A stretch of DNA of 64,000 nt from a virus: positions 1 through 64,000 of IMG/VR virus record IMGVR_UViG_3300023184_000088. One strand, written 5' to 3'. Under the pieces are notes generated by a model. It was not told where the DNA came from, did not search any database, and saw only the letters and a list, made by a program, of their open reading frames with translations. The position numbers were made by a program, and so were the translations under genes. Of the stretch, positions 4,962 to 61,587 are shown one piece after another (within the stretch, counting starts at the first letter, position 1; the number at the start of each line of letters is the position of its first letter).

Positions 4962-7900
4962 TTATACAATGGTTGGTGTTGGTGTAGGAGTTTGAGTTGG
5001 AGTTTCCGTAATTGTTGGGGTTGGTGTTGGAGGTATTTCTATATATTTTAAATAAAGTTTATCAAATATTGCAGTATTACCTGTAAGTGTTGACCCGAAA
5101 TTATAAAAATACCCGAACGAATCTAATGTTGTGTTTGTGTATGTTCCATCTGTCGCCACACTAGAAATACTATATCCTGTTGTTAGTGTAGGGTCAACCC
5201 AAGCCGCTCCATCATTTCTGAAATATAATTGCCAATTATTTGTTATCGAATCATAAGAAACCTTTAAACTTAAATAATCACCATCACCGAACCCTGGTGA
5301 ATTTGGTGTTGATAAAATCGTTGTTATATTAGCATTTGCTTGCAAACCACCTGTAAAACTAACTAAACGCCATTGTCTAGTCCCTGACCCTCCATAAACT
5401 AAAGCATAACCATAACCATCAGTTAACACATTAGTCCCACTTGACGCTAAAATAACAACTTGACCAAAAAGACCTGAATCAAACCCACTTAAAATGGTGG
5501 TCCAGTTATTTCTTACATTCACAGACCAGTTAACAACTGTTGGGTTTAAGTTTAATTGAGAATAAAAATTAGGATTATTCACTAAAGTATATGTGGACAT
5601 TGTGTAAAGTCTTCCGGTTGTGTTTGTATTATCCGCTCTTAATCTTAAATAGTTTGAACTAACGATGGAGATATTACCTGTGTTTGTTATTGTAGATGTA
5701 TATGTGATAGATGGTGTTCCACCAGGACTAACTGACACTCTATTAAAATCGTCCACAAAAACATCATAACCCGGTGCGTATGGGTTTGATGGTGTTGGTG
5801 TATTTGTTGGTGTTTGTGTGGGCGTTTCAGTATTTGTTGGTGTTTGTGTAGGTGTTTCGGTGTTTGTCGGTGTATTAGTTGGGGTTTCAGTGTTAGTTGG
5901 TGTTTGTGTGGGCGTTTCAGTATTTGTTGGTGTTTGTGTAGGTGTTTCGGTGTTTGTCGGTGTATTAGTTGGGGTTTCAGTGTTAGTTGGTGTTGGTGTT
6001 TGAGTTGGAGTTTCGGTTGGTGTTTGAGTTGGAGTTTCAGTTGGTGTAGGGGTTTGAGTAGGGGTTTCAGTAGGTGTTTGAGTTGGTGTTTCGGTATTTG
6101 TTGGAGTTTGAGTATTTGTTGGTGTCGGTGTCGGTGGTATTCCAAGAAATTTTAAATAAAGTTTATCCCCCACCAAGATATAGTCACCAATTCCATCTAA
6201 AATAGCGTTATTTATAATTTGTTCCGGTGTTGTTGGTGTTGGTGTAGGCGTTGTTGTTGGTGTAGGCGTTGTTGTTGGTGTGGGTGTTGGTTCTAACCCG
6301 GCAATTCTTAAATATAAAGAATCTCCTACAGAGATATATTCTATTTCGTTAGTTATAATAGCGTCATAAATATTGTCTTCCACTTGAGTTGGTGTAATTG
6401 TTGGTGTAATTGTTGGAGTAATTGTTGGTGTGTTAGTTGGTGTAGGTGTTGGAGGGTACACATCAATTTCATAAGTAAAATCATCTATTAAACATACATT
6501 AGTATTACAATCCGGACAATCCGGATTAAACATTTTGAAAGTGTCTTTTAATAACTTAAAGTTATGTTTTATTTCAGGTGCCGATAATGGTGAAACATAC
6601 ATTCTAAATTGAGATATTCCCCCATCAAAAGTTCCAGCAAAATTCTGTTCTATTAATATATTATTATTTAAACCTGAAAATGTTGTCCCACTTAAATCAT
6701 TAGTTGGCAGACATTCAGGGTCTTGTATGTATGGACCTAATGGAGATGTGGATGAAGAGAATGTTAAATTTTCTCTTAAACCTTGAGTGCCACCACCCCA
6801 CGAAACATTAAAGGGAACACCAACTTGTTTTTCTTTATCAGTATTTAATCCTCTTGGGATAATCTCTTCAAAATCCTCAATAGTGTAAAATATTTTACCA
6901 TTAATATAAATTTTTAATCTACCTTTTCTATAGTCTTTATCTAATAACCATTTTTCATTTAAATTAACTAATTCTATTTGTTCTGGTGTACGACCATTTG
7001 TATGTGTATAAGGTACTGTGATTAACGATACCGTGTTATTAGCTAACGATTCTAAATATTTTCTTTCTGTTATATCACCAAGACCTCCACGATACCATAA
7101 ATCACAAGTGTCTAACCAAGTATATCTTTCCCAAACCGCATTTAACTGAAACCAATGTTCTTCCTCTAAATAAGCTGGGTTAATTATCTCACAATCAGGG
7201 TATATTCCACCAGGTGAACAATATTCGGTAATTGTATATCCTGTTGTGTAAGTGATTCCTGTTGTCTCACAACTACCAGTTGTTTCACATCCTCCGGTGA
7301 ATCTTAAAACTTTTACGCCAATTTGTGGATTCTTTGGGTCACCACAAAGTTTGAATGATAATGCGTTGGACATTGAATCATATAATGGGTCAACCTCACA
7401 AGTATTTTCTATTGATGTGAATCCTGTGGTATTACAAGTGTCGCAAGTATCACAAGTGGTACAATTACTACAAGTTGGGGTACATATTGGGGTTATAACA
7501 CAATTAGATTGAGTTGATGTTGGCGTAGGAGTTGGTGTTGGTGTTATATCAATAATCGTCTCACAGATATGGTCTTGACATTCCCAACCACAACTTGCAC
7601 AAGAAGTTTCATTACAACCACAACCACAACTAATTTTAGTTACTGGATTTCCCCCACATAAATCACAACCATAACTGGCGTGAGTATCGTGTTGATTATT
7701 TATAGACCTAGGTGGATAAACATATATACAACGACTATTAGTTATTGTATTATCACAACAAGCACAAGTTGTCACACCCGTTAATTCAGATGTTATTCTT
7801 GTATATCCTGTAAAACAATTTGGAGTACCATTTGCGTGATGATAAAATTTATTTTCCGCCCTTGTACCTAAATAAAAGAATGTGTTCTTATTTTGGGGAT

Positions 7901-8618
7901 ATATTACATTAAGAGTTGTCTCACCTGAACTTGGTGTGTATTCATCAATTAAACGAGGTTTTAAAACCATCTCAACGCTCCACCCTTTATTTACTCGTTC
8001 AGGGAAAATTTCATAATCATATCCAAATAATTTATAAAACCCTTGATAAAATCCTCCATATAATTCGTGGTATTTACCTTCCGATAATCCTTCTTTACTT
8101 ACAACCTCATATAATATGGTTTTATTAAACCCTGAAAATCTAACATTAGGTGATTGGGTATTACCTGTTATTTGAAATAATTTTAATCTTCTATCAAATG
8201 ATAACCTATCAAATTTAATAAAATCTGAATATAATCCTTTAGTGAAATTAATTGTTTCACCGCTCATTTTATCAACCAAACCATTATCAATACCTGTTAA
8301 TCCAATATCGCAAGATGTTGATGATGAAAAACAAGATAAATCTTCATTATTTGGGTTATAGTAATTTTGAGATACAAAAATATTATTAACATTATAATTT
8401 TTATAAGTTAATGTTTGGTCTTGTACTATAAGGGGGTTATTTATATCGAAATAAAACGGCAATCTATTACCGTAAGTTTGAGCAATCAAATATGGTGAGA
8501 AAATTACTTCCTCATTATAGTCTCGTTCATCATTAGTTAACGACATATCTTGTGAGTCTAAACTCAACTTTAGAGACCAATTTGACTTATAATATTGATT
8601 TATATTCTGACTCGCCAT
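4962..8618 (-). CDS. Large modular fibre/adhesin with Pro-Thr linkers
   Basis: This protein has 1218 residues. Positions 1-265 form a globular domain. Positions about 268-408 are unusually Cys-rich, with CxxC pairs and clusters such as CGCGC. Then short modules of about 30 residues ending in (D/S)xLYL(K/R) alternate with PTPT linkers. The longest linker (about 825-945) carries ETPTQTP/NTPTNTE repeats. Residues 948-1190 form a beta-rich domain clearly homologous to the C-terminal domain of the 38410-39663 protein. The C-terminus returns to a Pro-Thr tail. A late motif precedes the start. It is probably a tail or receptor-binding fibre; the exact position in the virion is unknown. Confidence 0.7.
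5811..5990. repeat. Perfect 90-bp tandem duplication
   Basis: Bases 5811-5900 are repeated exactly at 5901-5990, adding 30 in-frame codons to the Pro-Thr linker of the fibre gene. Perfect identity at synonymous sites implies a very recent event. Confidence 0.9.
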
Positions 8619-38409: not shown

Positions 38410-39663
38410 TTATGGGTAAACATAGATATTAAAGTTATCAAAAAATGTTGTGTAAAACGTTGTTGTTGCACCAAAATTATAAAAATACCCAAAAGAATCT
38501 AATGGTGTTGATACATATGTTGAATCAGTAAACGTTGAACCTGCAACATATCCCGCATCTATTCTAGAGTCGGTAAATCCACTAGAACCGTCGTTTCTAA
38601 AGTCAACTCTCCAAGTATTAGGTGGGGTGTACGTTGCACGTATACTTAAATAATCGTTATCGGCAAATCCGGGCGATAAAGGTGTTCCATATAAATTTGT
38701 TATATTAGCATTTGATTGTAATCCTCCGGTAAATCTAACTAATCTCCATTGTCTATTTACTGACGCACTACCATAAATTAAAGCATAACCCGAACCATTT
38801 GTTAACACATCTGAACCATCAGATGCTAATATAACCGCTTGTCCGAAAAGACCTGAATCAAAACCTGTTAAAGGTGATGAATAATTACTCCTAACATTTA
38901 CTGACCATGTAACTGGTTTAGTATTTAAATTTAATTGTGAATTAAAATTAGGACTATTCACTAATGTATATGTAGACATAACATAAAGTCTACCCGTTGT
39001 ACTTCCTGATGAACCTCTCAACCTTAAATAGCGAGTTCCAGTCAGTATACTAATATCTCCACCATCTGTTATTGTTGAAGTGTAGCTAACTGATGGTACA
39101 CCTCCTGGACTAACCGGATTTCTTAAGAAATCGTCAACAAAAATATTAGTTCCTGGTGCTAACCCAGGAGTTAGAGTCATAGTAGGTGTTGGTGTATTTG
39201 TTGGCGTATAGGTTGGAGTTATTGATGGTGTTGGAGTATAGGTTGGTGTTATTGATGGAGTTGGTGTATAGGTTGGCGTTTGTGTATTTGTTGGCGTTAT
39301 AGTTGGCGTTTGTGTATTTGTTGGGGTATGTGTTGGAGTTCTTGTTGGTGTTGGGGTATGTGTTGGAGTTCTTGTTGGTGTTGGGGTATGTGTTGGAGTT
39401 CTTGTTGGTGTTGGGGTATGTGTTGGAGTTCTTGTTGGTGTTGGCGATAATCCAGGTGTTGGTGTCATTGTTGGTGTCATTGTTGGTGTTCTGGTAGGTG
39501 TTGGCGTAGGTGCTGGTTCAAAATATGATTCACTATCTTGAGAATTTTTACCTTTATTAAAATTAGGTAAGTTAACTTGTACGTTAAACACATTTTGTCC
39601 ATTAACGATTAATCGAGACCCCCCAATAATATTCCCTGATTTTTTTCTATTAACAAATCCCAT
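38410..39663 (-). CDS. Fibre protein with Pro-Thr shaft and shared beta domain
   Basis: This protein has 417 residues. Residues 1-50 form an anchoring start ([24 protein letters not shown]). Residues 50-165 are a Pro-Thr shaft with four exact copies of a ten-residue [10 protein letters not shown]-type unit. Residues 170-417 are a beta-rich domain homologous to residues 948-1190 of the 4962-8618 protein; both share FVDDF, SPGG, TGRLY and [10 protein letters not shown]. Placement between terminase and portal is unusual for a fibre and suggests a head or neck fibre, or a mobile insertion. Confidence 0.65.
39321..39440. repeat. Four perfect 30-bp tandem repeats
   Basis: A 30-bp unit is repeated exactly four times (39321, 39351, 39381, 39411), each coding ten residues of the Pro-Thr shaft. 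Perfect copies suggest recent slippage or unequal recombination. Confidence 0.9.
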
Positions 39664-47129: not shown

Positions 47130-49181
47130 ATGATAGAATCTATGGATGGTAACGAAGGAAGAGGTAAGAACACAAGTGTTTCCGAATCAGCAACACCAGT
47201 GTTAGACAATTTTAGTCGAGATTTAATAAAATTGGCTGAAGAAGGGAAATTAGACCCTGTTATTGGTAGAGAAAGTGAAATTACGAGAATTGCCCAAATT
47301 CTTTCTCGTAGAAAGAAAAATAACCCAATTATTATTGGAGAACCTGGTTGTGGTAAAACCGCAATCGTTGAGGGTCTTGCAATTAAAATCTATAATGGGG
47401 ATTGTCCAAGAAACTTAATGGACAAAAGAATCGTATCATTAGATATGACATCAATCGTTGCAGGAACAAAGTATCGTGGTCAATTTGAAGAACGAATGAA
47501 AGTAATTATAGAAGAATTACAAAACGCACCAAACATCATCGTATTCATTGATGAGATTCATACCATCGTTGGAGCAGGGAATTCATCAGGGTCAATGGAC
47601 GCATCAAACATCTTTAAACCAGCTCTTGCTCGTGGGGAAATCCAATGTGTTGGAGCAACAACATTAGATGAATATAGAAAAAACTTTGAAAAAGATGGAG
47701 CGTTAGAAAGACGTTTTCAAAAAGTTGTTGTTGATTCACCAAGCAAAGAAGAGACATTACTTATCTTGGAAAACTCAAAAGATAAATACGAATCTTACCA
47801 CAAGGTAACCTATTCCAATGAGATTTTAAATCTATGTGTTGATTTAGCGGAAAGATATATCACCGATAGAGAATTTCCGGATAAAGCGTTTGACATCTTG
47901 GATGAGGTTGGTGCGAGAAGTCAGGTAGAGATTAAAACTCCGGACTCAATAGAAAAGTTGAAACTCCAAGCATTCGATATTAAACAACAAAAAATGGATG
48001 TTGTTAAACGACAAGATTATGAGGAAGCCGCAAATCTTCGTGATAAAGAAAAAAGAGTCTTAAATAAACTTGAATCTGAAAAGAAAAAGTTTGAAGAAGA
48101 ACTCCTTACAAATAAAAAAGAAATCACCATTGATTTGGTTTATGAGGTTGTATCCAATATTACCAAAATTCCAATCACCAAATTAAACTCTGATGAGACT
48201 AAATTATTATCCGAAATGGAAGTTAATTTATCAGATAAAGTTATTGGACAATCTGATGCAGTTTCAAAAATTGCCAAGTCAATTAGAAGAAGTAGAATTG
48301 GGATTAAAGACCCAAACAAACCAATTGGTTCATTTATCTTTTTAGGGTCAACCGGTGTTGGTAAAACATATTTAGCAAAACAACTCGCCAAACAAATGTT
48401 CGGTAGTGAGGATAATATGATTCGTGTGGATATGTCAGAATACCAAGAAAAACATACCATATCAAGATTAATCGGAGCACCTAGCGGATATGTTGGGTAT
48501 GAGGATGGGGGACAACTAACCGAACAGGTTAAAAATAAACCATATTCTGTTATTCTATTTGATGAGGTTGAGAAAGCTCATAAAGATATTTTCTCCACAC
48601 TTCTTCAAGTATTGGATGAAGGACACCTAACCGATAGTTTAGGGAAAAAAATCAATTTCAAAAATTGTGTGATTATTATGACCTCAAATGTTGGAGCAAA
48701 AAAATTACAAGATTTTGGTTCAGGTGTTGGTTTTAAAACTGGGTCAAGTACCTATGTTGAGGAAGAATATCGTAGAGATGTTTTGAAAAAGGAATTAAAG
48801 AAATTCTTTACTCCGGAATTTTTAAATCGTGTAGACGAGATTGTAATCTTTAATTCTTTAGTGAAAGAAGATGTTAAAAAAATTGTGAAATTAGAATTGG
48901 ACATCCTAACTAATAGATTAATTGGAATGAAATACGACATCACTTTTGATGGTAGTGTTTTAGATTTAATATCTGATGTTGGATTCGATGAAACCTACGG
49001 AGCAAGACCAATTAAACGAGCTATCCAAGACAAACTTGAGGATTTTGTGTCAGAGGAGATTATAAAAGGAACTGTGGTTGAAAACACCCCATACACAATT
49101 ATCTCTGTGGATAAAGAAATTAAATTTCAAGAAGTTGTAGAAGTTGTGAAAAAGACAAGAAAGAAAAAGGGGGATGTATAA
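47130..49181 (+). CDS. ClpC-like AAA+ unfoldase without N domain
   Basis: This protein has 683 residues. D1 carries Walker A GEPGCGKT (about 70) and FIDEIHTIVGAG; D2 carries GSTGVGKT (about 407) and ILFDEVEKAH. Between them a ClpC-type M domain with QDYEEAANLRDKEKRVL is visible (about 270-340). GVGF near 532 corresponds to the ClpP-docking loop of ClpC. The double Clp-N domain that recruits adaptors is missing: only about 20 disordered residues precede D1. It could redirect host ClpP or act as a chaperone. It has its own host-type promoter and terminator, near tmRNA and SmpB. Confidence 0.88.
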   Translation: MIESMDGNEGRGKNTSVSESATPVLDNFSRDLIKLAEEGKLDPVIGRESEITRIAQILSRRKKNNPIIIGEPGCGKTAIVEGLAIKIYNGDCPRNLMDKRIVSLDMTSIVAGTKYRGQFEERMKVIIEELQNAPNIIVFIDEIHTIVGAGNSSGSMDASNIFKPALARGEIQCVGATTLDEYRKNFEKDGALERRFQKVVVDSPSKEETLLILENSKDKYESYHKVTYSNEILNLCVDLAERYITDREFPDKAFDILDEVGARSQVEIKTPDSIEKLKLQAFDIKQQKMDVVKRQDYEEAANLRDKEKRVLNKLESEKKKFEEELLTNKKEITIDLVYEVVSNITKIPITKLNSDETKLLSEMEVNLSDKVIGQSDAVSKIAKSIRRSRIGIKDPNKPIGSFIFLGSTGVGKTYLAKQLAKQMFGSEDNMIRVDMSEYQEKHTISRLIGAPSGYVGYEDGGQLTEQVKNKPYSVILFDEVEKAHKDIFSTLLQVLDEGHLTDSLGKKINFKNCVIIMTSNVGAKKLQDFGSGVGFKTGSSTYVEEEYRRDVLKKELKKFFTPEFLNRVDEIVIFNSLVKEDVKKIVKLELDILTNRLIGMKYDITFDGSVLDLISDVGFDETYGARPIKRAIQDKLEDFVSEEIIKGTVVENTPYTIISVDKEIKFQEVVEVVKKTRKKKGDV

Positions 49182-51536: not shown

Positions 51537-51949
51537 GGGAGTGACACGGAATTGACTATTCGTAATAGTTATTTGGGGCACGTAGTGAGATGTTCTCTAT
51601 CACTTAAATCTATGGGCACAACAATTTAGACGGAAACGTTTTAAACAAAATGGCTCTAGTAGGTCTTGTACGTCAAGATGAGCTTGTGAACGTAGCGTAA
51701 GCAAACACACATTGGGGTCGACAGACAGATGCACCTAGCAACAGAACTGTCTTAAGGTGTAATACCACCAGAAGATGTATTAGGAGTCTCGTTCAGGGGT
51801 CTACTCCAACACAAGTGAACCCGACACAGTTATTGGTGACGATGTCAAAATAGGAACCAAATATTTGTCAGTTGAGAATTAACTGAATAAACGTGTAGTC
51901 CTTAATAGGTAATACAAGTAACACCGGAGTTCGAGTCTCCGCACTTCCA
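51537..51949 (+). ncRNA. ssrA: Transfer-messenger RNA (tmRNA)
   Basis: This RNA is about 413 nt. The 5' end GGGAGTGACACGGAATTGAC and 3' end GGAGTTCGAGTCTCCGCACTTCC form a tRNA-like domain with a 7-bp acceptor (GGGAGTG/CACTTCC) and a canonical T-arm. No CCA is encoded. GGGGCACGTAGTGAG matches the conserved post-5' segment. UAGAC at 51627-51631 resembles the E. coli UAGUC before the resume codon. Resume at GGA (51632) gives a 22-codon tag ending DELVNVA before TAA at 51698. tmRNA rescues stalled ribosomes with SmpB, whose gene lies 0.5 kb away. A hairpin terminator follows. Confidence 0.9.
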
Positions 51950-51960
51950 CAAAAAGAAAA

Positions 51961-52936: not shown

Positions 52937-53822
52937 TCTTGGCTAATTAGGTTGAGATTAAACCTATTATTGAGAATCTTTAAAAGGATTATTAGTTCCC
53001 TCTGTATCCACACCCTTTTGGGATGTAATCCTCAGTGACGATTGGTTAGACCAATCACTCCTCGAGTCGTAAATTACTCTCTTATTACTACACTCTCTTT
53101 AATCTTGCGAACTAATTAATCCTTGCGGGATTAGAGGTTTTTGGTAAGAATACACATCAACTTGCGGTCTTTGTGTGCTATGGACGGCCCATAACTAAGT
53201 AGTCACCTTGTCATCTACGACTGACAGACACTTTTGCTTTTTTCTGTTTAGTTTTTCACCATGTTGAAAATAGTAATTGTGTTGTGGATGTGTCGAAGAA
53301 GGGGTCTGTCGTAAGCTTCGCTATCTTTTGGACAACAAAATACTAACCTCCTCCGTGTAATGTCCCCATTACGAAATTTCAAGTGTAGTTCATATCAACA
53401 TCTTGGTAGATGTTTGATAGGGATAAAATCGACACCACTCGTTCTTTATCTTACCTTTCGGTTTTAACTCAACTCTTATTTTGGAACCCGCAATTACATA
53501 TTTGGAAATATGTTTCTTACTTGGTTCCTATGGGTTATTCTTATTGGTGTTCCCACCTCAACCGGACAATCCACATTGCCAAGTTAGTATTCCATTTCCC
53601 TACGAAGTTATCCTCGGTACTACAGGACTACTAATATCCCACTTGCTTACTCGAGTTCGGTTTCCCAAACCCCAAAATTAGTAACACAACTAATTTCGGT
53701 TTATCCTGCTTTCGCAGTTTATTTAAAGATGATAAGCCACCTATTATCTTTGATACAACACCGAAGTGTTATAATGGATAATCTAAAATTTCTAAGAACG
53801 TCTTTAAGGTTTCCCTTAATTG
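52911..53822 (-). ncRNA. Large (about 910 nt) structured noncoding RNA, GOLLD/ROOL-like candidate
   Basis: No credible coding frame fills this segment, which is less AT-rich than its surroundings. It runs from a host-type promoter at 53828-53857 to a strong terminator. Read on the minus strand, many hairpins end in standard stable tetraloops: AACAC-UUCG-GUGUU (53757-53770), CUGC-GAAA-GCAG (53706-53717) and GUAAUG-GGGA-CAUUAC (53357-53372). Other stems lie at 53117-53133 and 53040-53056. Size, lack of coding and position beside tRNAs recall the GOLLD and ROOL phage RNAs. I cannot confirm membership; it may be a new class. Confidence 0.7.
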
Positions 53823-53985: not shown

Positions 53986-54076
53986 TGGTATCAACGGGAC
54001 TCGAACCTGTGACACAGGGTTTTTCAGAACCCTTGCTCTACCAAGGGAAATAAATCTCCCACTGAGCTATAATACC
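53986..54076 (-). tRNA. tRNA-Phe(GAA)-like with D-loop insertion
   Basis: This gene is 91 nt. The 7-bp acceptor GGTATTA/TGATACC, D-stem GCTC/GAGC, anticodon stem AGGGT/ACCCT and T-arm with loop TTCGAGT are in normal order. Two features are odd. The D-loop holds about 17 extra nt that can form a GGGA/TCCC hairpin. The anticodon loop TCTGAAAA has 8 nt; with U33 as its third base the anticodon is GAA (Phe). One T-stem mismatch (A-C) is present. CCA is not encoded. It sits between the two permuted elements. Confidence 0.65.
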
Positions 54077-57299: not shown

Positions 57300-57334
57300 A
57301 AAAATAAAAAAAGTGAGGACAATTCCTCACTTTT
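57300..57334 (-). terminator. Terminator of the RNA-repair operon
   Basis: AAAGTGAGGA and TCCTCACTTT pair around a 4-nt loop; on the minus strand T residues follow. It lies about 12 nt after the ligase stop. Confidence 0.85.
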
Positions 57335-57345
57335 AGTCATTTTTC

Positions 57346-58371
57346 CTACAATTTTTTAAATTCCGGTTTGATTAGATTCCATATAATTTCGGAGTAATCT
57401 TTACGGTCAAACATCCTAAATAAAATACCTGATAAATGTTTAGGTTGTTGTGATACCCACTCAGCATACTCTTTTCTATCTGTGATGGGTTCTTTGTCGT
57501 TATATTTACCATACATTTTACCATCAAATTTTTTACCAGCATCTTCAGATATTTGGAAATAAAAATACCTTAATTCTTTTACATAATTTTTAATTTTGGT
57601 GTAAAATTCATCCGGAACATCTTTTAATAATTCCATTACATCTTCACCATTTTTTAAATATTCCCATATACCTGTTGTAGACACATTGGTCATAATTTTA
57701 TGAAGACGAAGATACTCAACACCTTTTACTTTAACTCTATCTCCATTTGAGAACTTCACCACGAACCCCTCTTGGTCGTTTTTAACCATTTCTTTTAATT
57801 GTTGGTAGTCCTTGATACCATCGTATTTTTTAACCACATCAAAACCCCACTCATCCCAATCTGACATGTCATAATCTTTACCCCAATTATCGAATGCTCC
57901 CAATAGGACCAGTTTCTCTTCACCTTTATAATCCAAAACAATTCTGTTTTCCGGGTAGATAATCTCAAAACAAAATGTCATATGTCTAAACATTATGTCT
58001 GTATTGTATTTCTTTAAGAGTTCTCTCGCTTTGATTGCTTGGTCTGATGTAAATGAACCACGAGTGGCAACCACCCATTGACCTTCATACCAAAATACGA
58101 TACCTAATGAACCATCCATTTTTTCATAAACTTCAAAGGTTTCAGTAGGAGTATATTTTCCTTCCTCAATATTAAAGAATTTTTTAAATGGTGTTGCAAC
58201 AATATCTCCTTTGTCGTCAGTAACTAAACCTCTTGTACTAAGAGTCACCTCATCCCACAGGTTCTCGTACTGAACTTTTTCAGAGTAGTTCCATATGGTT
58301 AATGGGAGTGTTGGATGTACTTGTTTGTAAAGTAATCCGTCTTCGTAATATTTGTTTAGTTTTTCTAACAT
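57346..58371 (-). CDS. rnlA: T4 Rnl1-like RNA ligase
   Basis: This protein has 341 residues. Nucleotidyltransferase motif I EKMDGSL gives the adenylated Lys84. Also visible are ATRGSF, FCFEIIYPENRIVLDY (motif III), EGFVVKF (motif IV) and RVKVKG (motif V). RGLVTDDKGDIVATPFKKFFN before motif I is typical of the Rnl1 family. In T4 this enzyme reseals tRNA cut in the anticodon loop by host anticodon nuclease. It is the last gene of the repair operon and lies 4 kb from the aberrant tRNA cluster. Confidence 0.88.
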   Translation of the reverse strand: MLEKLNKYYEDGLLYKQVHPTLPLTIWNYSEKVQYENLWDEVTLSTRGLVTDDKGDIVATPFKKFFNIEEGKYTPTETFEVYEKMDGSLGIVFWYEGQWVVATRGSFTSDQAIKARELLKKYNTDIMFRHMTFCFEIIYPENRIVLDYKGEEKLVLLGAFDNWGKDYDMSDWDEWGFDVVKKYDGIKDYQQLKEMVKNDQEGFVVKFSNGDRVKVKGVEYLRLHKIMTNVSTTGIWEYLKNGEDVMELLKDVPDEFYTKIKNYVKELRYFYFQISEDAGKKFDGKMYGKYNDKEPITDRKEYAEWVSQQPKHLSGILFRMFDRKDYSEIIWNLIKPEFKKL

Positions 58372-58375
58372 AATT

Positions 58376-58513
58376 TTATTTTTTCTTTTTCTTTTTTTTA
58401 ATAGGTCTTTCAGGTCTTTCTAAATATCTTGGGGGTAAAGGGATTTGTCTTCCCCCTCTGAATACACATCCATTTCCCATCATGAGGAAGGACCAAATAA
58501 ACCACCCTATCAT
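58376..58513 (-). CDS. Tiny membrane/lysine-rich protein
   Basis: This protein has 45 residues. Its ATG overlaps the upstream stop (ATGA), and its stop is 4 nt before the ligase ATG, so it is translationally coupled. The N-terminus MIGWFIWSFLMM is hydrophobic and the C-terminus ends in seven Lys. It may be a small membrane or RNA-binding factor, or only a coupling frame. Confidence 0.4.
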   Translation of the reverse strand: MIGWFIWSFLMMGNGCVFRGGRQIPLPPRYLERPERPIKKKKKKK

Positions 58514-58902
58514 AATTTTATTTCAAATCTATCTTTCATTTGGACTAATTTATCCTCCGGAACTCCGTGTTCATTGACACCACCGTGTCTATTTTCCACA
58601 ATGATGGAGAATACTTTATACCCGTATTTTGCTGCCAAGTCATAATATGGTTGCATTTCCCACTCTTGTGTGAATGTATTAGACACCACAACTTTATGTT
58701 CGTATTTCATCAAAAAATCAACTTCTTCTTGACACCAAGCGTGAGCATCTTTAATTTCAGATGGTTTGAAATTATAATTTCCATCTCTATCCACAAAGAA
58801 CATATCGGCTTCTTTGACATACCCTTTATTACCGGCAATAGATTTTGCCAATGTTGATTTACCACTTCCTGGTAATCCTCTCAATAAAAATAACTCTTTC
58901 AT
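58510..58902 (-). CDS. Polynucleotide-kinase-like P-loop kinase
   Basis: This protein has 130 residues. GLPGSGKST at 9-17 is the Walker A motif, with a DMFFVDRDG region and the lid-type VVVSNTFTQEWEMQPYYDLAAKYGYKVFSIIVENRHG. This matches the kinase half of T4 Pnkp and related 5'-OH kinases; the phosphatase half is absent. With the ligase it would restore 5'-phosphates on cleaved RNA. Its start is 2 nt after the previous gene. Confidence 0.7.
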   Translation of the reverse strand: MKELFLLRGLPGSGKSTLAKSIAGNKGYVKEADMFFVDRDGNYNFKPSEIKDAHAWCQEEVDFLMKYEHKVVVSNTFTQEWEMQPYYDLAAKYGYKVFSIIVENRHGGVNEHGVPEDKLVQMKDRFEIKL

Positions 58903-58903
58903 T

Positions 58904-59185
58904 TTAATTTTTTAAATATTTCACAATCTTTTCAATTCCTTCGGTATCATCCGAATTAATAATAAATTCATCAAACGCTCCGTACTTACATTGATAACCA
59001 AAAATATATTTCAAACCATAACTAACTCTTTCCCAAAAAGGTCGTTTAGTTAAATGAGTGTGGATATATACCATTGGATGTTTCACACCATCAATTTCGT
59101 CTTCATCATACATTACCACCATTTGATGTTCTGTGTTATGACAAGAACAGATGAATAAATCTTTTTGTGTTTGTTTAATTTTCAT
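58904..59185 (-). CDS. Hypothetical small protein in repair operon
   Basis: This protein has 93 residues, with CSCHNTEHQMVVMYDEDEIDG (near 13) and PFWERVSYGLKYIFGYQCKYGAFDEFII. Similar small proteins occur in other phages by general appearance; no function is known. It overlaps the upstream gene by 11 nt. Confidence 0.55.
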   Translation of the reverse strand: MKIKQTQKDLFICSCHNTEHQMVVMYDEDEIDGVKHPMVYIHTHLTKRPFWERVSYGLKYIFGYQCKYGAFDEFIINSDDTEGIEKIVKYLKN

Positions 59186-59678
59186 GTTTTTTTAATCTTT
59201 TTTTTATTTTTTTTAACACTATTTTATCATTCGCAGCATCTTTTAGTGAATTATATTTAGTGTAGGATTCTTTAGTTAGTTTTAATAACTCAATACTTTC
59301 TTCATCCGATAAATCAAATAAAATATGACCACAAATTACTTTTGTTATAAATCTATAAGTCGTAACTGTTGTCCAAAACTTTTTTAATCCAAAATATTTT
59401 GTCTTATAAATCTCATCCGCAGAACTATAATCCCACTGCGTATAAACTCTAATATCGGGTTCACCATCTTCAAATTTTAAAGTAAACTCCATTATATCGG
59501 GACTTATGTGTTCTGATTTGTCATAATTCTCTTTAACTTTAAACCGCTTTGTAACGTATGGTGATGGACTATAACTACCACAATATATGTGATTAGCAAA
59601 ATAACAATTGTGAAAAATATTTTCACCACCCACATTCTCTAATTCTTTGTGAATTAATTCTAAAATTTTTTCTTTCAT
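59175..59678 (-). CDS. Hypothetical protein in repair operon
   Basis: This protein has 167 residues. The start at ATG 59678 overlaps the upstream stop as ATGA and is preferred over the ATG at 59714, which lies inside the preceding gene. It contains FHNCYFANHIYCGSYSPSPYVTKRF near the N-terminus and a very basic C-terminus (KIVLKKIKKRLKKHE). The family is not recognised; the basic tail could bind RNA. Confidence 0.5.
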   Translation of the reverse strand: MKEKILELIHKELENVGGENIFHNCYFANHIYCGSYSPSPYVTKRFKVKENYDKSEHISPDIMEFTLKFEDGEPDIRVYTQWDYSSADEIYKTKYFGLKKFWTTVTTYRFITKVICGHILFDLSDEESIELLKLTKESYTKYNSLKDAANDKIVLKKIKKRLKKHEN

Positions 59679-59938
59679 CTTATTTTTACTTCTATTAATT
59701 TTTTTCTTAACCATTCTTCATTAACATAATCCGGTCTTTCCCCCAAAATAATTTCATCTATTGTCTCCCCAAGGATTTCCATTAACATTGATTTAATTTC
59801 TGATGGAGCGTCCATTGGTACATATGAAAAACAATCTTGTATCATCTCGTAAGTCAATGGTACCTCAATAATCACTCGCTTGGGGATTAAATTCCCCTTT
59901 TCATCAAAATGGGATTCTTCAATTCTCGTGTTATACAT
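59675..59938 (-). CDS. Hypothetical small acidic protein
   Basis: This protein has 87 residues from ATG 59938 (MYNTRIEESHF), which starts one base after the phosphoesterase stop; the longer frame to 60016 lies inside that gene. It contains VIIEVPLTYEMIQDCFSYVPMDAPSEIKSMLMEILGETIDEIILGE. No family is recognised. Confidence 0.5.
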   Translation of the reverse strand: MYNTRIEESHFDEKGNLIPKRVIIEVPLTYEMIQDCFSYVPMDAPSEIKSMLMEILGETIDEIILGERPDYVNEEWLRKKLIEVKIR

Positions 59939-59939
59939 A

Positions 59940-60602
59940 TTATTTTCTTTTTTTACCGTCTTCAGTTTCAATCTCATCCGTGTGGTGGTCAAATAACATA
60001 TCTGACACAATATCACGTTTATCCATTATTCTTATTATATCATCCATATCATATACTCCAAAATTTGGGTGACCATCCATACCAACATCCATTTTCTTAC
60101 CTTTACCAAATCTTAAATTTGTTGGTAAGTGAACGTGTCCATGGAGATGAATAACACCTCTATTCAAGTTCTCCCAAGAAGCTATTGGATAATGAAATAA
60201 TTCAAATGTTTTGAATTTGTATGTCATAATATCTGAACGAGAAACACTTGCAAATAACTCCTGACAATCACCTCTGTTGTTTTGAATGTGGTGGTCGTGA
60301 TTACCTAATATAAGGTGAATCTCTTTACACACAATTCTATCTCTGAATTTTTGGATGTTTTCAAATCCCCCGAAGCTCCAATCCCCAAGATGAATTAACA
60401 CATCATCTTCACCAACAACACTATTAATGTTATTAACGATTGTTTCGTTCATCTGTTCTATTGTATTAAAATCTCTCGTTTGAGATATCGGAATACTACC
60501 ATCAGGGAGACGCCATTCGGTCACTCCTCTACATATGTTTTTGTGTCCGTAGTGTGTATCGGACGTAACAAAAACTTTTCTATCTTTATCTATCTTAATC
60601 AT
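59940..60602 (-). CDS. Calcineurin-like metallophosphoesterase
   Basis: This protein has 220 residues. All motifs of the fold are present: SDTHYGH, GDWSFGG, GNHDHH and HGHVH, which bind two metal ions. In the RNA-repair context it may remove 2',3'-cyclic or 3'-phosphates left by endonucleases; that specificity is inference. The start at 60602 is set by a -7 box that ends 4 nt upstream. Confidence 0.8.
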   Translation of the reverse strand: MIKIDKDRKVFVTSDTHYGHKNICRGVTEWRLPDGSIPISQTRDFNTIEQMNETIVNNINSVVGEDDVLIHLGDWSFGGFENIQKFRDRIVCKEIHLILGNHDHHIQNNRGDCQELFASVSRSDIMTYKFKTFELFHYPIASWENLNRGVIHLHGHVHLPTNLRFGKGKKMDVGMDGHPNFGVYDMDDIIRIMDKRDIVSDMLFDHHTDEIETEDGKKRK

Positions 60603-61092
60603 ACTGCAAATGTAGTTCTTTTTTTCCAAACCAAAAAGGTTTTTCTCTATTTTTCCAAGAGGCTAAATTAATTTTAGCACCCATATAATAATTTCTATAA
60701 GATTCCACAACAGAATCCACCTTAAACTCATCCGGCATTGCCATTGCTGGTTGAGTAAAACCAATATCCGGAATGTTTGGTTTATTAATGATACACCAAT
60801 TAATCACATCTATTGATTTGTGTCTTTTACCATACCTGTGGGTATATTCCTTCCCAAGTTCTAACCCCAATTCACACAAATACAAATAATTTGATAAACT
60901 CTGACGAGCCCACACCGCACAAGGGTGATTTTTATGAGACAACTTGTACGGTACTTGGTCGTTAACTTGGTCGGTTACGTGATGAACGCTACATAATAAT
61001 TGAGCGGTTTCCAAAATCATTTTCACTACGTGTTTATCTACGTGGTATTGAGCCGATAGTTTAGGATTCTCATCCAAGAAAAATATATTCAT
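60595..61092 (-). CDS. Conserved phage protein of unknown function
   Basis: This protein has 165 residues from ATG 61092, which overlaps the upstream stop as TAATG. MNIFFLDENPKLSAQYHVDKHVVKMILETAQLLCSVHH is a strongly conserved-looking motif that I have seen in other phage genomes without a proven role. CAVWARQSLSNYLYLCELG follows. Its 3' end overlaps the phosphoesterase promoter and start. Confidence 0.6.
   Translation of the reverse strand: MNIFFLDENPKLSAQYHVDKHVVKMILETAQLLCSVHHVTDQVNDQVPYKLSHKNHPCAVWARQSLSNYLYLCELGLELGKEYTHRYGKRHKSIDVINWCIINKPNIPDIGFTQPAMAMPDEFKVDSVVESYRNYYMGAKINLASWKNREKPFWFGKKELHLQYD
60607..60635 (-). promoter_or_regulatory. Host-type promoter, leaderless spacing
   Basis: On the minus strand TACATTTG (60614-60607) ends 4 nt before ATG 60602. 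A TTTG lies 17 nt upstream, slightly short. Confidence 0.6.
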
Positions 61093-61562
61093 TATACATG
61101 TGGTATTTTGACTCTTACACAAGTTTGTGCTTGACCCTCGTTCATATAAAAATTATTTAAATAACCCATAATATTTGCACTTCCAATTGGATTAGCCGAA
61201 TGAACATATACAGTTGGAAAAACAAATTTATCTATTTTTCTCTCACTTCTTGTCATATTAAACCTTCCCTCGTTTGTATTGTGGAATAATGCAACCAAGA
61301 ATTTGGCAGCATCATATCCGGTTTTTTCGTTAATATTGTTATAATCCAAAGTATAGTTCGGAGAAACATTACCATAATACTCTTTCATCGCAGAATCACC
61401 TAAATCGTGGTCCAGGGAGATTGTACTAACATTTTCTAAACCAATTTTGTTAACTTCGTTAACAAATTCATCATAATCTCTAACAACAACCCAATCATCT
61501 CCGGTTGGAGTTCTTACATCATCGAGATAAATTCTACAAGTTGTTTTCATATTATTTTCCAT
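61092..61562 (-). CDS. cREC-type receiver domain protein
   Basis: This protein has 156 residues (152 from the second ATG at 61550). RIYLDDVRTPTGDDWVVVRDYDEF, TISLDHDLGD and VHSANPIGSANIMGYL match the cREC (cyclic-phosphate-processing receiver) domain. This family is predicted to act on RNA cyclic-phosphate ends in RNA-repair and conflict systems. It is the first gene of the operon that ends with the ligase. Confidence 0.7.
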   Translation of the reverse strand: MENNMKTTCRIYLDDVRTPTGDDWVVVRDYDEFVNEVNKIGLENVSTISLDHDLGDSAMKEYYGNVSPNYTLDYNNINEKTGYDAAKFLVALFHNTNEGRFNMTRSERKIDKFVFPTVYVHSANPIGSANIMGYLNNFYMNEGQAQTCVRVKIPHV

Positions 61563-61579
61563 ATCACATTATTTAGATG

Positions 61580-61587
61580 CAAATATA
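61580..61587 (-). promoter_or_regulatory. Host-type -7 element before the repair operon
   Basis: On the minus strand TATATTTG lies 17 nt before the ATG at 61562. No clear -33 TTTG is seen. Confidence 0.5.

Follow-up and report, generated by a model that had tools for sequence, protein, structure and literature searches.

A phage operon of Rnl1-type ligase, stand-alone kinase, metallophosphoesterase and cREC genes as a probable RNA-repair kit

Layout of the operon

The window analyzed here, 64,000 bases of viral DNA, comprises positions 1-64000 of a 76,614-base IMG/VR virus record (IMGVR_UViG_3300023184_000088). It carries a compact operon of nine minus-strand open reading frames (ORFs) in which an RNA ligase of the T4 Rnl1 type, a small kinase, a metallophosphoesterase (MPE) and a cREC protein are encoded together, probably for the repair of RNA. 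The genes run head to tail from 61562 to 57346, in the following order and with the following flanking elements.

61580..61587, minus strand: promoter -7 element of the Bacteroidota type, TATATTTG, beginning 25 bases ahead of the cREC start codon
61092..61562, minus strand: cREC (cyclic-phosphate processing receiver-like domain), 156 amino acids, first operon gene; cREC_REC (PF20274), E 2e-18
60595..61092, minus strand: EndoV-fold protein ("PyrX"; T4 endonuclease V fold predicted), 165 amino acids; phrog_624, E 4e-60; weak PF03013 match, E 0.004
59940..60602, minus strand: MPE, calcineurin-like, 220 amino acids; Metallophos (PF00149), E 1e-7; phrog_547, E 1e-45
59675..59938, minus strand: 87-amino acid ORF, conserved in 13 of 80 related loci
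59175..59678, minus strand: 167-amino acid ORF, in 1 of 80 related loci (94% identical); ratio of nonsynonymous to synonymous substitution rates (dN/dS) 0.24
58904..59185, minus strand: 93-amino acid conserved protein; phrog_12660, E 2.5e-7; in 34 of 80 related loci; dN/dS 0.05-0.24
58510..58902, minus strand: stand-alone P-loop kinase, 130 amino acids, predicted 5'-OH polynucleotide kinase; AAA_33, E 3e-12; phrog_2071 "ATPase", E 8e-41
58376..58513, minus strand: 45-amino acid ORF, doubtful gene, in 1 of 80 related loci
57346..58371, minus strand: T4 Rnl1-type RNA ligase, 341 amino acids; RNA_lig_T4_1 (PF09511), E 5e-19; phrog_562, E 6e-68
57309..57334, minus strand: intrinsic terminator after Rnl1, with an 11-bp stem, a 4-base loop and a T run

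Successive junctions measure -1, -8, +1, -4, -11, +1, -4 and +4 bases, in agreement with a preliminary description of this DNA, which had pictured one tightly packed block from 61562 down to 57346 ending at a single terminator. The cREC, MPE and Rnl1 genes named there are all recovered by domain and family searches, and to them must be added the 165-amino acid protein between cREC and MPE, which had gone unnamed. The 45-amino acid ORF was seen in only a single relative and may be no true gene. The core genes and the 93- and 167-amino acid ORFs are under purifying selection (dN/dS 0.05-0.24; cREC, 0.06-0.07).

TAnnTTTG is the -7 box of Bacteroidota promoters. Among 20 relatives, 12 carry it no more than 100 bases ahead of cREC, versus a frequency of 10% in stretches drawn at random from these loci; this enrichment speaks for a Bacteroidota host and for transcription of the operon from cREC onwards. 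The terminase is nearest to those of Microcystis phage Mel-JY01 and the Flavobacterium immuto phages, with about 28-29% identity, so the phage is a distant relative of T4-like phages; near-identical DNA was not found in phage records.

Ligase and kinase

Single-sequence searches of the PDB with Rnl1, kinase and MPE gave no useful match, whereas profile searches succeeded. The Rnl1 profile, in which T4 is itself included, matches T4 Rnl1 (2c5u) at E 2e-106. When aligned with T4 Rnl1 (sequence from NC_000866), R47, K64, F66 and K84 of the phage ligase correspond to T4 R54, K75, F77 and K99, and E136, E201, K214 and K216 to T4 E159, E227, K240 and K242. Nucleotidyltransferase motifs I, III, IV and V are intact, i.e., K84, E136, E201, K214 and K216 are invariant versus T4, and the position of T4 K119 is taken by R104. 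The NCBIfam equivalog TIGR02308 is missed (65 bits, E 6e-18, versus a cut-off of 242 bits) and the PF09511 family cut-off is reached; the protein is therefore a diverged relative and no equivalog of T4 RnlA. The preliminary assignment as an Rnl1-like ligase is supported by PF09511, phrog_562 and the full set of catalytic motifs.

A kinase profile built from 45 relatives, without T4, finds T4 Pnk on top among solved structures (1ly1, E 6e-5; 1ltq, E 1e-4), with the kinase of CthPnkp (4gp7, E 0.002) further down. K15, S16 and D33 align with T4 Pnkp K15, S16 and D35, i.e., the P-loop and the general-base aspartate are retained; R105 aligns with T4 R122, and the counterpart of T4 R126 is uncertain. 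F36 and N75 occupy the positions of T4 R38 and D85, both essential in T4 Pnkp. The HAD phosphatase domain is absent from the protein, the chain stopping at 130 amino acids, after the kinase domain, and a HAD_PNKP domain was not found in the window's own record. Without the HAD phosphatase, Arg38 and Asp85, this is no full Pnkp; the earlier label of a Pnkp-like kinase is an overstatement. We also considered the kinase family by itself as a marker of RNA repair and rejected it: linked MPE, ligase or CCA genes were present in only 3 of 80 cellular-genome contigs, and those three are possibly viral.

Metallophosphoesterase and cREC

The MPE fits the binuclear metal-ligand pattern D-x-H, GD, GNH[DE], H, GHxH, and all seven metal ligands (D15, H17, D74, N101, H137, H156, H158) are invariant among 50 relatives. 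Its structural model has a pLDDT (predicted local distance difference test) of 93.1 and is nearest to 1xm7 from Aquifex (Z 16.6). VIA-align 2 ranks LpxH, Mre11 and YfcE under 1xm7, which is uninformative on the substrate, and Foldseek by itself was weak for both the MPE and the EndoV-fold models.

The cREC protein scores 67 bits in Pfam against a cut-off of 27, and D14, D15, D51, H52, D53, H121, S122 and N124 are invariant among 33 relatives. Comparative genomics has predicted cREC to be a cyclic-phosphate enzyme linked to RNA ligases (PMC7824862), with cyclic ADP-ribose (cADPr) or 2',3'-cyclic nucleotides as its predicted substrates and with frequent fusion to Nudix domains (PMC7824862, PMC9503650); its cyclic-phosphate hydrolase activity is a published prediction.

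Recurrence of the gene set

Eighty viral contigs of IMG/VR with an Rnl1 relative were fetched for co-occurrence counts. MPE is present in 64 of them, the kinase in 59, cREC in 45, the EndoV-fold gene in 37 and the 93-amino acid gene in 34, with all partners on the Rnl1 strand. So that the sample would not be biased toward Rnl1, contigs were also fetched by MPE, cREC and EndoV-fold profiles, and redundancy was removed at 80%. The 29 non-redundant Rnl1-anchored loci contain MPE in 22 and the kinase in 22; the 35 MPE-anchored loci contain the kinase in 18, cREC in 15, the RNA ligase Rnl5 in 12 and Rnl1 in 11. At least one other repair gene lies within reach in 27 of the 35 MPE loci and in 14 of the 23 EndoV-fold loci. 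The EndoV-fold protein often accompanies repair genes. Only one Rnl1 and two EndoV-fold genes in these non-redundant sets are on the opposite strand. If random placement in a genome of about 150 kb is assumed, with a chance expectation of 11-14% per window of search, binomial tail probabilities are 4e-9 (MPE with kinase), 9e-14 (Rnl1 with MPE) and only 0.09 (cREC with Rnl1). The genes thus co-occur far above chance when MPE or Rnl1 is the anchor and less so for cREC; failure to co-occur had been named beforehand as an outcome that would refute the operon's proposed role.

Another explanation is that cREC and MPE process small cyclic nucleotide or ADP-ribose signals of host immunity, kinase and Rnl1 repair RNA, and the operon bundles two anti-defence functions. 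The published cADPr and 2',3'-cyclic nucleotide prediction, with its frequent Nudix fusion, favors such signal processing (PMC7824862, PMC9503650), as do the non-redundant cREC-anchored loci, 12 of 22 of which have no repair partner nearby and 10 of 22 of which do. We regard this explanation as unlikely, since no SIR2 was found in the 15 operon-bearing records and the linkage of MPE with kinase and ligase persists where cREC is missing.

Gene orders vary by contig (MPE-Kin-Rnl1, Kin-MPE-cREC-Rnl5, Rnl1-MPE-Kin and Kin-Rnl1-cREC); shuffled order with linkage kept is as expected for a functional unit. It could also be that these are co-transcribed accessory genes with no shared pathway, held together by lineage, and the small ORFs that differ among relatives and the inserted ORFs resembling homing endonucleases would be in line with this. 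Linkage of these enzymes in varying order, both across diverged contigs and across isolated phages that are unrelated, makes it very improbable. The inserted ORFs, GIY-YIG-like by eye, are seen in the operons of relatives and lie between kinase and Rnl1 or after cREC.

Two further partners, both of them RNA enzymes, recur in related operons: an additional, DraRnl-type RNA ligase (NCBIfam RNA_lig_DRB0094, E 4e-57), which sits between the kinase or the 93-amino acid gene and Rnl1 in 14 of the 80 Rnl1 loci, and a CCA-adding-like enzyme. The idea that the DraRnl-type ligase replaces the kinase where none adjoins was rejected, as several such records hold a kinase tens of kilobases off.

The protein with a predicted EndoV fold

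With 18 bits, the EndoV-fold protein is below the PF03013 gathering score of 23. Its AlphaFold model (pLDDT 89.8) is nearest to T4 endonuclease V (2end; Z 9.2, root-mean-square deviation 3.9, 119 residues), a Z that mostly helical folds can reach by chance, and the next unrelated structure has a Z of 4.1; hhalign gave no significant match to T4 DenV. One match, from the record of a Wolbachia phage, carries the annotation release factor.

The modeled fold points to DNA repair, and one may ask if the operon is a DNA-repair and virion-assembly cluster, in which the EndoV-fold protein, kinase and MPE would act on DNA ends and Rnl1 would mainly serve tail-fibre attachment like T4 gp63. Besides the predicted fold, the annotation of phrog_562 reads "RNA ligase and tail fiber protein attachment catalyst", and MPE has a weak match to PdeM (E 0.0014, under the cut-off). 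Set against these are the complete active site of the ligase, the alternative partners (the DraRnl-type RNA ligase and the CCA-adding-like enzyme), and the tRNA genes in the neighbourhood, so that we hold such a cluster to be quite improbable.

Neighbouring translation-related genes

The operon is placed between an array of tRNA genes, on its own strand and upstream of it, and the genes for GOLLD, SmpB and transfer-messenger RNA (tmRNA); a tRNA also lies downstream, with GOLLD and tmRNA.

67090-76298 (record positions, beyond the window), minus strand: 17 tRNA genes
52949-53355, minus strand: GOLLD RNA, RF02032, 321.8 bits
52435-52872, minus strand: SmpB gene, PF01668, E 2e-46, about 75 bases downstream of GOLLD
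51537-51952, plus strand: tmRNA, RF00023, 67.9 bits, missed by ARAGORN

The tag frame of the tmRNA (51632-51700) is conserved among relatives and reads GNVLNKMALVGLVRQDELVNVA here; tags end in VNVA or VVA, versus the usual LAA. An odd 91-base tRNA-like gene at 53986-54076 (minus strand), to which ARAGORN gives the 4-base anticodon ccct, precedes the GOLLD core by about 630 bases; a similar one is at the same place in relatives, perhaps inside the GOLLD 5' region. Also in the region of SmpB and tmRNA is a gene for a ClpA/ClpB-like double AAA+ unfoldase (47130-49181, plus strand).

GOLLD is reported in PMC12286853 to form a 14-mer RNA cage and to lie frequently by phage tRNA genes; that paper assigns it no function and cites ribosome binding. 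GOLLD was found in 25 of 34 operon-bearing records, 24 of them above the cut-off, and SmpB in 14 of the 34; in 12, including this one, SmpB and GOLLD share a strand and are 90-1,000 bases apart. A link between GOLLD and ribosome rescue is possible, and the closeness of GOLLD to a phage SmpB, here also to tmRNA and repair genes, makes the question of GOLLD function testable. These neighbours fit a phage that protects translation; they are no proof of a repair function.

Long frames with TPTP/NTPT repeats and collagen-like frames, probably fibre or adhesin genes, are at 1378-2675, 4962-8618, 38410-39663 and from 61634 (plus strand) to record position 64528; one such repeat frame is divergent from cREC.

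Proposed RNA-repair function

We propose, with a probability of about 0.7, that the phage uses this operon to repair RNA, the likeliest substrates being tRNAs broken in their anticodon loop. Gene content and order, the promoter element and terminator, the catalytic motifs, purifying selection and recurrent linkage are directly shown by the data; the reactions, substrate and benefit are what we infer from them. Briefly, a host RNase would cut the RNA, the new ends being a 2',3'-cyclic phosphate and a 5'-OH; MPE, cREC or both would open the cyclic phosphate and then remove the phosphate to give a 2',3'-OH; the stand-alone kinase would phosphorylate the 5'-OH; and Rnl1 would self-adenylate at Lys84, activate the 5' phosphate and seal the break. 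The two healing activities that T4 unites in Pnkp would here be divided among separate proteins, with a metal-dependent phosphoesterase probably substituting for the HAD phosphatase. A PrrC-type target is suggested by analogy.

As the kinase is without the HAD phosphatase domain and two T4-essential residues, 3'-end healing would be left to MPE or cREC. SIR2, KptA, RlaP and RtcB were not found in the 15 operon-bearing records, which are fragments (SIR2 control genomes were positive); in the same records 2H was above the cut-off in one and HAD_PNKP weakly present in three. No known alternative 3' healer or one-step ligase was therefore seen, which leaves MPE, cREC or both as the best candidates to heal the 3' end, partly by exclusion. 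The preliminary view that these proteins jointly heal and reseal RNA is partly supported, namely as regards the ligase, MPE and cREC motifs and the linkage, with the 3' step to be expected from MPE or cREC; catalytic residues, the loss of which was to be checked, are retained in these three proteins, and the kinase has lost the counterparts of T4 Arg38 and Asp85.

Those two replacements are among several points that weaken the proposal. Bacterial chromosomes commonly carry relatives of the kinase with no RNA-repair genes beside them, so the kinase alone is no proof of RNA repair and it is on the operon context that the argument depends. Some linkage on a single strand is to be expected anyway, phage genes being arranged in long co-oriented blocks; only 10 of the 22 cREC-anchored loci have a partner close by, and in some relatives the kinase is remote from the ligase or undetectable. 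The EndoV-fold partner points to DNA repair. The closest solved MPE relative, 1xm7, has no assigned function, and we know of no activity for cREC or for the families to which this kinase and this MPE belong. T4 Rnl1 doubles as a tail-fibre attachment factor. Please note also that the absence of other enzymes is provisional because the records are fragments.

If RNA repair is indeed the function, the MPE family and cREC become named candidates for the unsolved 3'-end healing step of phage RNA repair, and the cassette is compact enough to be rebuilt in vitro. A wider proposal, which we advance as doubtful speculation, is that the operon performs RNA healing independent of sirtuin, KptA and HAD, in which the MPE family and cREC would heal 3' ends and the EndoV-fold protein would take part in RNA-damage processing, and that it would be half of a translation-salvage island together with the tRNA array, GOLLD and SmpB-tmRNA ribosome rescue.

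Comparison with known systems

Most parts of the operon are already known from other phages. We found no description of this exact gene combination and its setting by tRNA, GOLLD and ribosome-rescue genes, and in the open-access literature, with most subscription journals outside, no paper on MPE with a phage RNA ligase or on SmpB in jumbo phages.

T4 Pnkp (PseT) and Rnl1 (RnlA/gp63), the anti-PrrC tRNA repair pair, share with the operon an Rnl1 with all motif residues and a kinase akin to the T4 Pnk domain. In contrast to T4, the 130-amino acid phage kinase is without the HAD phosphatase/cyclic phosphodiesterase domain and has R38 and D85 changed, cREC, MPE and EndoV-fold genes are extra, and the genes form one tight operon, whereas T4 pseT and rnlA have four genes between them (NC_000866). 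Clostridium thermocellum Pnkp unites kinase, calcineurin-like phosphatase and ligase in a single chain, i.e., the same three types of activity, and its kinase is matched by our profile as given above; the phage proteins are separate and their ligase is of the Rnl1 type.

In phages like Escherichia V5 and Proteus Mydo, a published neighbourhood groups a sirtuin with a T4-like ligase, cREC, a nucleotide kinase, MazG and, in some cases, a calcineurin-like phosphoesterase (PMC9503650), so ligase, cREC, kinase and at times the phosphoesterase are common to both; here, no sirtuin was found in the 15 fragmentary operon-bearing records, and EndoV-fold and 93-amino acid proteins are added. MiataMamis, a V5/Mydo-related phage, has Sir2, a pyrophosphohydrolase, Rnl1, kinase and MPE, the last three homologous to those of the operon; relatives of its sirtuin or MazG-like protein were not present in the fetched loci. 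Pseudomonas phage vB_PseuGesM_254 and Aeromonas phage phiA009 have adjoining one-strand MPE-Rnl1-kinase triads in common with the operon, with no cREC annotated next to the former triad and none detected next to the latter. Given these triads in isolated phages and the V5/Mydo neighbourhood, the operon is best seen as a sirtuin-less variant to which an EndoV-fold gene has been added.

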